Of a DNA stretch of 64,000 nucleotides, positions 30,226-44,350 are shown piece after piece. How positions within the stretch are numbered: the first letter of the stretch is position 1; each line of letters begins with the position of its first letter. Made by a program: the position numbers and the translations under genes. The stretch is from Candidatus Methylobacter favarea (GTDB lineage: Bacteria; Pseudomonadota; Gammaproteobacteria; Methylococcales; Methylomonadaceae), in the NCBI RefSeq assembly GCF_902806695.1, contig NZ_CADCXN010000080.1, forward strand, positions 1 to 64,000. The letters are read 5' to 3'. A model generated the notes under the pieces. That model was not told where the DNA came from. It was given only the letters and a program-made list of their open reading frames with translations, and did no database searches.

Positions 30226-31975
30226 TAGTGTGTTCCTGAAAATAAATGAATAAAAAATGAAACCATTATATTAGACTTCGGCGTTTGACGGCATAGAGGA
30301 AGAAATTATTTTTTTCGTCTCCACAGAAAAGTCCAGAGTAATGTAGCTACCTTATTTCGGACTCATTGCTCAAAATACTTGTAAACAAAGAGCGAGTCCC
30401 GATGAGTCATGAAAAACCAAAGGTCTACAACGGCTAATTCAGAGAGTCAGTGATTCCGCTCGCCAAGACTCAGGCAAGCCCCTTGTCCAACAGCCAATCA
30501 ATGCTACCTATTTAAAAAGCCAGCCGCGAGCTTTGCCAGGGAACAGCGGTGAAGGTCGCATGGGTCAAGCACCACTTTATGAAAGTTATTCCAGACCTAT
30601 ACCAAACCTGAGACATCCCTGGCGGAAATTTAAAGCAACCCAGCCATTCCTTGCTGAATTAGCCTAGGAATAAGCCGCGCTCGAGCCTTATCCGACTTAT
30701 CTTTTCCGGCAACAAGCCCGCGGTCGACGGTTGAATAAAGCAAAGTCTTTTATAAGCGCGAGCCGCGGCATTCGGTTAAAGGTTAAAAATTACCGTGGAT
30801 TTTAAATTGCATAATACTGCTTAACCTTAAGATTGGCTGAGTCGGAGTTAGCGGGGCGACAAATGGATGGGCTGGTTTTTGAACAAAAAGCGTGTTTTTT
30901 ATGCACTTGAAAACACCAGTATCAGCTGTTATGGCCGGGACCATAAAACTTAGGCCGCCTGGCTTGGCTGCGCTGAAGCCAGGCGGCCTCGGGCCACTGC
31001 CGCAACCGGGGCGATTAGGCCGATGCCGGGTTAATCTCAGCCTCTGCGCCTGGTGCACGGGTGGGGTTGCCAGCGGCGACTGGGACAAAACCCTTGGGGG
31101 TTTGCCTGCGCTTCAGGAAACCCGCCGTGTGCCGGTAATGGCGTATTGCCGATGACCGTCAAACACTCCCTTAATCCCTGTTATGTACAAAGCTCTTCTT
31201 GTAAATTGAACAGCTGTTCTACAAACTTGAGCACCATTTTTGAAATTAAAAAAAGGGTTCAGTGAAATAAGAACAGATCTTCAGGTTTAGACAAGATAAG
31301 CATGGCTATAAAAACATAGCTATGAGAAACGTATTCATCAATAGGTATGCAGAGTCAATAGCAACCGTGATGCCAAACAGATTGCCATATTGTATTAAAA
31401 ATTGTTTTATTGCGCTAAAAATGCGGTAGTGAACATCTATCTCAAAAAAAACTGATCTGCATTTGCGTCGTGAAAGTAAAATTTCTACTGCTAAAGCGAT
31501 TGACGTGCTGGATATTGATTTGCTCTCATTGAGGAAAAAGTTGGCATGCTAACACTGACTACGAGATTTAGAGAATTAACTCGACTTTTAATTAATTGCG
31601 AATTATGTAAAGTATGATTTATGCACTCTTCGCTCAAAGCCGAATATTACATTTTAACTAATTTAAATTTTAAGCTAACAACTCCTAATATTCATTAAGT
31701 TCTTTCAGTGACGATGCACTTTTTAAAAGTGTCTACAATTGGGTAATTTATAAGTATATTTAAAATAATTTTTCGCTGAACTTGAGCCAGATAACTTATT
31801 TCCCAGGAAGTTATAGTACTTTTTTAAATTTATGTCAGTAGTTAATAAGACATGAGATTGTCAATTCGTAATATTTTTCTGTCTAGGAAAAATGTCGAGT
31901 CATATTTCTGGGGTATCCGTTTCTAATATTGTTGAGGTAACTTAACAATTAAATCAGATTATGTTTAATAAAAAA
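30226..31975. other. 1.75-kb gene desert upstream of the pmo terminator
   Basis: Only short shadow frames occur. 30300..31200 has scattered GC-rich bits and one strong hairpin, and may be decayed DNA. 31200..31970 is AT-rich with stops in all frames. I see no tRNA, rRNA or convincing small gene. A small RNA cannot be excluded. Confidence 0.5.
30953..30988. repeat. Perfect 13-bp inverted repeat (GC-rich hairpin)
   Basis: GGCCGCCTGGCTT and AAGCCAGGCGGCC are separated by 10 bases. No T-run follows, so it is not a simple terminator. It could be a REP-like element. Confidence 0.85.
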
Positions 31976-34278: not shown

Positions 34279-35031
34279 TTAAGCCAAGTCTTTTTTCAGA
34301 AGCTTAGCTATTGCCTGGCATTCTATGTTCAGAACACCCAATACACCTAAAGCTGCCCATCCGAAGAATACGAAGCCATAGTGTAAAGGAGCAACGAACA
34401 ACTCTTCCATAAACCAGAAAGTGTGACCCCATTCATTCAAGCCCACGTTCGGCAGAATCATGAAAGGACCCACTATGGCTACCAAATACTGAAGAGCCAG
34501 ACCTTGTTGGTAAGTAGGCAATCTTGTTTTTGCATATAATAGAGCTGCACCACCAGTAATGATGTAGATAGGATAGCTCAAATAGAATTCGATAATATGA
34601 CTTGGTGTAAAGTCAGTATCACGAACGATTGTTTGATGCCATGTTCCATCTTGCTCTGTAAAGTAGCTAGCACCGTAATAAATAGCGATGCCGTACATTA
34701 TCAGCCAAATCCAGTGAGTGAAGTGCCTTCTTAACTCTTCTCTTGGAGTGATTGACATCACTTTACGATCCCGGCTCTTCCAGAGATATCCCCACAAAAT
34801 ACCGGCAGTTGAAACTTCCAAAACAAACTCAATATAAAGAAAGTTCATCCAGTATGTTTCAAATTCGGGTGCAAACGAGTCTAGACCAGCTGACCAGCCA
34901 TAGACACCTTCATACCAGCGAACCCAAGCGTAAAACACTATGTAGAGTGCTGCGCCCAGAAACATATTTCTTTTATTTAACAGCGGTGCTTCCGCAGCAT
35001 CAGCTTTCACTGATTCAGTTGTAGCTGCCAT
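34279..35031 (-). CDS. pmoC: Particulate methane monooxygenase subunit C
   Basis: Encodes 250 residues. The conserved block RDTDFTPSHIIEFYLSYPIY holds the Asp and His residues known to bind metal in PmoC, and further on NVGLNEWGHTFWFMEELFVA and PLHYGFVFFGWAALG carry the second conserved Asn/His group of the membrane copper site. Six or seven TM helices. It is the first gene of pmoCAB, preceded by AGGAGG. The promoter region with its inverted repeat is 100-160 bp upstream. Confidence 0.98.
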   Translation of the reverse strand: MAATTESVKADAAEAPLLNKRNMFLGAALYIVFYAWVRWYEGVYGWSAGLDSFAPEFETYWMNFLYIEFVLEVSTAGILWGYLWKSRDRKVMSITPREELRRHFTHWIWLIMYGIAIYYGASYFTEQDGTWHQTIVRDTDFTPSHIIEFYLSYPIYIITGGAALLYAKTRLPTYQQGLALQYLVAIVGPFMILPNVGLNEWGHTFWFMEELFVAPLHYGFVFFGWAALGVLGVLNIECQAIAKLLKKDLA

Positions 35032-35128
35032 TTCTACCTCCTAAAAATTATCAAATCCCCAACCAAATCTGGCCAGGAGTTTATAGTTACAAATCCGTTT
35101 TATTTATTCTTCTTAATGAATTTTAAGA

Positions 35129-35166
35129 ACTGAATACTCACTAAGTCTATTTAGTGAGTATTCAGT
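35129..35166. promoter_or_regulatory. Perfect 16-bp inverted repeat upstream of pmoC (possible operator)
   Basis: ACTGAATACTCACTAA and its exact reverse complement are separated by six bases (GTCTAT). It overlaps the right edge of the predicted pmoC -10 box. It may be an operator for a dimeric regulator, or may fold at the 5' end of the pmo mRNA. Confidence 0.85.
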
Positions 35167-35191
35167 CTACCAGTTCAATTTACCTTGTCAA
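35164..35191 (-). promoter_or_regulatory. Predicted sigma-70 promoter of pmoCAB
   Basis: On the minus strand TTGACA (35186..35191) and TAGACT (35164..35169) are spaced by 16 bp; the -35 is perfect and the -10 matches at four of six. The start site would fall in the inverted repeat, roughly 120 bp before the pmoC ATG. Sigma-70-like promoters before pmoC are known in methanotrophs. Confidence 0.6.
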
Positions 35192-35326
35192 GTCAAAATC
35201 CTCCTTCCTTTAAATATTTTTTAACCCCTGCTTTGACGGCCAAAATTAACTACATTTAAAAGATTGATTCTGTTATTATTAATTGCTAAATTTTCCATTT
35301 TTTTATGTTGTGTCCCACCTTTGTAT

Positions 35327-44314: not shown

Positions 44315-44350
44315 AAAAAAGCGCTGCCTGACAGGCAGCGCTTTTTTTTT
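44315..44350. terminator. Bidirectional rho-independent terminator after coxC
   Basis: GCGCTGCC and GGCAGCGC form a very strong stem around TGACA with six A before and nine T after. It can end both the plus-strand cox transcript and the minus-strand twin-TM gene. Confidence 0.95.

Follow-up and report, generated by a model that had tools for sequence, protein, structure and literature searches.

What does a perfect inverted repeat do when it lies between the promoter and the first gene of a methane monooxygenase operon? pMMO ranks among the main enzymes by which methane is removed biologically, and to our knowledge little is known of how its level is controlled beyond a strong promoter. The window (the whole 64,000-nucleotide stretch analyzed here) carries pmoC on the minus strand (34279..35031, starting at 35031) at the head of the operon, with pmoA and pmoB behind it, all three named by reading the proteins. 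Between the predicted promoter and pmoC sits a repeat with two 16-nucleotide arms, 35129-35144 and 35151-35166, separated by a 6-nucleotide spacer; the arms, ACTGAATACTCACTAA / TTAGTGAGTATTCAGT, match exactly and are 100% complementary. The initial annotation proposed that it is the operator of a repressor or copper-responsive regulator or, alternatively, a hairpin at the 5' end of the mRNA. The message itself can be very abundant: in Methylosinus trichosporium, pmoCAB accounts for about 14% of all coding reads (PMC3615186). In the portions of the open-licence literature covered, including PMC3615186, PMC9241951, PMC13108547, PMC11133525 and PMC10909576, we found no description of the hairpin or of a link between CsrA and pmo, and an earlier account may exist elsewhere.

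The position of the repeat is best understood relative to the promoter, a sigma-70-like TTGACA-16-tgTAGACT at 35191-35164 on the minus strand with 10 of 12 matches. Its -35 element TTGACA (35186..35191, minus) is conserved in the family and recurs in 25 of the 60 regions chosen at order level, and its -10 element TAGACT (35164..35169, minus) follows after a 16-nt spacer with TGG in front. The prediction that this is the pmoC promoter is strongly backed by such conservation among relatives. In the pmoC2 promoter of M. capsulatus, the C of the -35 element is numbered -31 and that of the -10 element -9 (PMC10909576); with the equal 16-nt spacing, this numbering puts +1 eight bases past the -10 hexamer, at the first stem base, 35156 (minus strand, to within about 1–2 nt). 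The start of the stem is at a fixed distance from the conserved promoter, and it is from the M. capsulatus numbering that we infer the start site in the window species. The M. capsulatus Bath amplicon, sought by its published primers, was absent from the order-level regions retrieved, which leaves the numbering of PMC10909576 as the basis for the start site. The same paper describes the -10 box as differing from that of a synthetic promoter at three positions, a small mismatch with the two differences between TAGACT and TATAAT. It also reports random mutagenesis of PpmoC2 from -113 to +37, read out in E. coli from 24 picked colonies, where, per the authors, no mutation lay outside the core promoter except in the reporter start codon; they themselves point out that colony selection was biased (PMC10909576). 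That outcome counts against any element here, albeit as a small, colony-picked set in E. coli. On the two sides of this region lie the Shine-Dalgarno sequence AGGAGG of pmoC (35038..35043, minus) and an IHF-consensus-like site, AATCAATCTTTTA (35257..35269, minus), at -113 from the predicted start. The latter, WATCAANNNNTTR at 35257-35269 (-), resembles the IHF consensus; a strict IHF-like motif occurs in 36 of 142 family sequences, 31 of these at -113 or -114, and in 0.8% of shuffles.

As a sequence feature, the repeat is as the initial annotation had it, exact over 16 bp with a 6-base gap. It is beyond anything in shuffled sequence (when the entire window was dinucleotide-shuffled 40 times, the longest perfect arm was at most 13, with loops of up to 12) and, as a palindrome with 14 bp per arm and a gap of 4-8, is present at a single place in the 4.07-Mb genome. 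Its edge does lie inside the predicted -10 box, overlapping the last three bases. The repeat also covers the start region as described, whereas its center (35147.5) is displaced from the start point that had been assigned to it, the predicted start at about 35156 being some 9 nt upstream. The 14-base half-site has one further exact genome match, alone and inside an open reading frame, and two more at one mismatch; these matches are taken as chance. A scan of the genome with model R1 for other genes with promoter and hairpin finds pmoC only (2.1e-8; next E 4.6) among the 150 of 939 first-look candidates scored. An interspersed repeat or REP-like element was rejected, the palindrome being at one genome place only. 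The Rfam sRNA psRNA14 (RF02351) was likewise rejected: the long hairpin scores 34 bits with a gathering score of 60, the second hairpin of psRNA14 barely pairs, and the sub-threshold similarity is treated as a chance likeness between long stems. Two other inverted repeats were seen in the window. A second pair of perfect 16-bp arms, at 44315-44347 with a 1-nt spacer and a T run at its end, is an ordinary-looking intrinsic terminator; a GC-rich 14-bp repeat with a 10-nt loop lies at 30952-30989, between a speE-like gene (named by reading) and pmoB.

Whether any of this has been retained by selection can be judged from relatives. A search with the window's PmoC gave positives at 1e-40 in 171 of 201 family genomes, and 148 upstream regions were gathered, 130 from matched places and 18 new ones from 80 loci of named genome records. 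Dropping two whose contigs lack the promoter (L003, L169) and removing four duplicates left 142 distinct sequences. Each of 29 genera was represented by its first listed genome, except where that genome was unfetched (g3, g20, g26). Three further sets are to be read with their selection in mind. Alignment A1 holds 56 of 111 distinct promoters chosen for a visible stem of 6 pairs with a 6-base loop, and its 100% core pairing is therefore partly by construction; the selection-free pairing count instead uses all 142 sequences with columns set by the promoter. Alignment A2 holds 18 of the 29 representatives, picked for alignability. The 60 order-level regions are our choice among the listed matches, several being paralogous copies within one genome, and the promoter is missing in 35 of them, including all 8 from family f7. 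Of the relatives found, the nearest is L132 (JAQUQM010000129.1), whose PmoC is 97% identical to that of the window; the contig is assigned to a Dehalococcoidia MAG, which probably reflects misbinning. In the sole other available genome of the window's own genus (G001, rated 100% complete), there is no pmoC match at 1e-40.

The relatives divide the palindrome into two parts. The inner six pairs, CACTAA–ATAGAC–TTAGTG, are common to relatives, at a fixed distance from the promoter, and correspond in RNA to a 5'-terminal hairpin CACUAA-AUAGAC-UUAGUG (35139..35156, minus); in the clade of the window, the consensus after the promoter is roughly GAnnnnTCACyAAATwGAyTTrGTG. The outer arms show no such constancy. 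In the 36 nt after the -10 element, the longest Watson-Crick arm measures 13 in the window and never exceeds 9 among the other 141 sequences, and the ten outer pairs have standard pairing in 38% of the cells of the 56-sequence alignment A1, random bases giving 37.5% (6/16). On this comparison, the middle of the palindrome is old and its outer parts are not, such that the expectation of finding the same palindrome in related species holds for the inner six pairs and fails for the full repeat. The outer 5' arm (35157..35166, minus) lies upstream of the predicted start, over the -10 box; the outer 3' arm (35129..35138, minus) is transcribed and is fully complementary in the window species only, and partly in L132.

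The L132 sequence also offers a glimpse of how the outer arms may have come about. Its outer pairing is imperfect, and by hand reading it differs from the window at five arm positions spread over both arms, each being a mismatch or wobble that is a Watson-Crick pair in the window. The 16-bp extension appears to be a lineage-specific enlargement of a small hairpin common in relatives, perhaps made perfect by template-switch correction of an imperfect palindrome. The outer arms could be wholly neutral, a by-product of template switching on a quasi-palindrome that adds nothing to the function of the core hairpin. With an imperfect version in L132, five differences that all perfect the pairing in the window, and outer pairs otherwise at chance level in A1, this reading comes close to an even bet; it is held back in that one close relative cannot fix the polarity of changes that lie on both arms, and that a longer stem under selection would look alike.

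For the inner pairs, the pattern of substitution bears on whether DNA or RNA is what selection sees. All six core pairs form at the promoter-fixed columns in 80 of the 142 distinct family promoters (sequence counts and not independent events); 23 of these are fully Watson-Crick and 57 include a G·U in the sense strand, whereas A·C in place of G·U, a combination that a DNA dyad would tolerate equally, occurs in 0 of 142. Since 57 cores need a G·U of mRNA sense and none needs A·C, selection in the conserved core appears to work at the level of RNA. A stricter search for symmetric stems gave G·U over A·C by 10 to 2 among the 29 representatives and 75 to 10 among the 142, while a looser scoring that rewards any extension left the two unseparated (20 versus 18 by genus, 133 versus 99 overall). 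The stems themselves change with pairing kept, as in CACTAA/TTRGTG, CACCGA/TCGGTG, CATCAA/TTGATG and CACTGA/TCAGTG, and further in CACTCT/AGAGTG, CCCCACA/TGTGGGG and AATACAG/CTGTATT. Taken one by one, 13 of the 29 representatives have a stem better than shuffles at p<0.05 (controls: 3/29 downstream, 2/29 upstream), and the other 16 fall short of significance; pooling gives a p of 7e-15, a value made too small by the relatedness of the representatives, and the downstream control itself pools to 7e-4.

The consensus fold of the 18 chosen leaders in A2 has two helices, the 5' hairpin and a hairpin before the ribosome site, with changes on both sides in 8 of 11 pairs; the second of these, at 35057..35078 (minus, coordinates by hand) in the window, lies upstream of the ribosome site and shows compensatory changes among the 18 leaders. 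Taken from the predicted start, the window leader does not fold more stably overall than its shuffles (z -1.1), and z reaches -4.9 solely when the untranscribed outer arm is included. The promoter, the position of the stem, its pairing and the conservation of its loop can be read directly from the compared sequences. Pairing of the core across relatives supports the alternative raised in the initial annotation, and we judge it very probable that the pmoCAB message carries an RNA hairpin at its 5' end.

The explanation that we favor, with moderate confidence, is that this is a 5'-terminal hairpin stabilizing the pmoCAB message, ancestrally a CsrA-type site, which was enlarged in the lineage of the window. 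Transcription would start on the first base of CACTAA or on its neighbor, so that the message opens inside a stem of about 6 pairs with a loop of about 6 bases; if +1 is 35156, the outer 5' arm is untranscribed, and hence only the inner hairpin can form in RNA. We infer that such a structured 5' end most likely guards a very abundant mRNA from 5'-end-dependent decay. A parallel may be drawn with the ompA-type stabilizers of E. coli, in which an abundant mRNA begins with a stem-loop and has at most a short single-stranded tail ahead of it, as would be the case here; unlike in these, the loop sequence of the pmo hairpin is conserved. Stabilizing 5' stem-loops have been described (PMC7509114).

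The loop is what suggests a link between the hairpin and the Csr/Rsm system. A GGA starting 14-16 nt after the -10 element occurs in 62 of the 142 sequences and an AUWGA in 75, with 5 having neither; by genus representative, 15 of 29 are of the GGA type, 12 (that of the window included) are AUWGA and 2 are neither. Among the 25 order-level regions with the promoter, 22 have GGA 13-16 nt after the -10 element, e.g., CCCG-AAGGAA-CGGG. In g10, g13, g21 and g27, GGA is present with an enclosing stem that is short or not significant. An exact ANGGAN hexaloop with at least 3 closing pairs was found in 18 of 142 sequences, as opposed to 12 times in 2840 shuffles, and likewise in 8 of the 25 order-level regions; 10 of the 18 come from the single genus g13, on stems of just 3 bp. 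Farther down the leader, a second ANGGA is present at mid-leader in 133 of 142 sequences, shuffles giving 47.5%, and all but one of the 29 representatives have it, with ACGGA in the window at 35094..35098 (minus, coordinates by hand); the total count of ANGGA in the 29 representative leaders is mildly raised, at 40 versus 30.5 (sd 5) when shuffled. The idea that GGA is the ribosome site of a leader peptide was set aside, as by eye there is no consistent start codon.

These features recall known CsrA sites. The SELEX consensus of CsrA is RUACARGGAUGU, an ANGGAN hexaloop has been determined by NMR for RsmE, and the stems of SELEX hairpins are mostly of 4 pairs or fewer (PMC7652899). As in CsrA/RsmA hairpins, many relatives have a short stem, a GGA in a loop of about 6 bases, a second GGA site and csrA; unlike in these, the pmo hairpin is at the first mRNA base, the clade of the window has AUWGA, and some stems are longer. 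In E. coli, CsrA protects the 5' end of flhDC from RNase E (PMC7652899), and the flhDC leader resembles those of the relatives in having a GGA-type site at the 5' end and a second one besides, differing in that the first pmo site is a conserved 5'-terminal hairpin whose protection is our supposition. The window's own genome encodes csrA (PF02599 at 1.5e-25, an open, 66-aa protein), as do 112 of 121 order genomes, 111 above the curated cut-off; no CsrB-like sRNA was found in it above the gathering score, in a search that gives weak signals in unrelated controls as well. Substrate limitation of M. album lowers the transcripts of both csrA and pmoA (PMC9241951), which fits but proves nothing. In the GGA-loop genera, the hairpin would serve, or would ancestrally have served, as a dock for CsrA/RsmA with the second site in mid-leader, a reading that we hold as plausible though somewhat doubtful. 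The window's own 5' loop, AUAGAC (35145..35150, minus), is of the AUWGA type of its clade and lacks the GGA of ANGGA, and direct binding of CsrA there is accordingly not predicted and is unlikely; in this clade, the contact at the loop was probably weakened or replaced, with the stem and the mid-leader ANGGA remaining.

A simpler form of the same idea is a purely structural 5' stabilizer with no dedicated RNA-binding protein, in which the loop is kept for folding or early transcription. The stem does persist across both the AUWGA and the GGA lineages, and two genomes of family f8 with no csrA match (L300 and L301, one of them 99% and the other 87% complete) nevertheless have a hairpin in front of pmoC, by eye CCACC/GGTGG with a loop without GGA; on the other hand, G225 has no csrA match yet has the GGA, against a tidy rule. 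A bare stem would also not be expected to keep the GGA in register with the promoter when its own sequence changes, or to be accompanied by a conserved second ANGGA in mid-leader. We regard it as a tentative alternative to the CsrA-type ancestry.

The operator reading, in which a dimeric repressor or copper-responsive regulator bound to the palindrome blocks RNA polymerase at the -10 element and start, draws its appeal from a perfect 38-bp dyad over the -10 box, far above chance, and from an inner dyad that holds a fixed place in relatives. Against it, the full dyad is confined to the window species (longest arm 13, and at most 9 in the other 141), the outer pairs are at chance level, and the core retains RNA pairing, often without DNA symmetry; with just 23 of the 80 paired cores fully Watson-Crick, DNA symmetry is not conserved. 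The half-site, moreover, recurs exactly at one other genome place, alone and within an ORF. The operator proposed in the initial annotation is thus improbable, G·U pairs breaking the very symmetry that it would need. Less probable still is that a copy of the -10 hexamer in the loop region causes sigma-dependent promoter-proximal pausing: TAGACT at 35148-35143 is identical to the window's -10 hexamer, but it occurs in the AUAGAC branch only, others having UUGAC or GGA, and pausing leaves the paired stem unexplained.

Taken as a stabilizing hairpin of CsrA-type ancestry, a conserved RNA element at the very start of the message offers a precise, mutable target, and a testable link between methane oxidation genes and the Csr carbon-storage system; expression constructs built on the pmo promoter either include the hairpin or cut through it. 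More speculatively, and as a conjecture that we would put forward rather than defend, the pmoCAB mRNA of Methylococcales may be a direct Csr/Rsm target, with one CsrA dimer bridging the 5' and mid-leader ANGGA sites and setting the stability of the message by the carbon and energy state of the cell, in which case the switch of the loop to AUWGA in the Methylobacter-Methylovulum group, to which the window belongs, would mark a changed partner or a lost contact.
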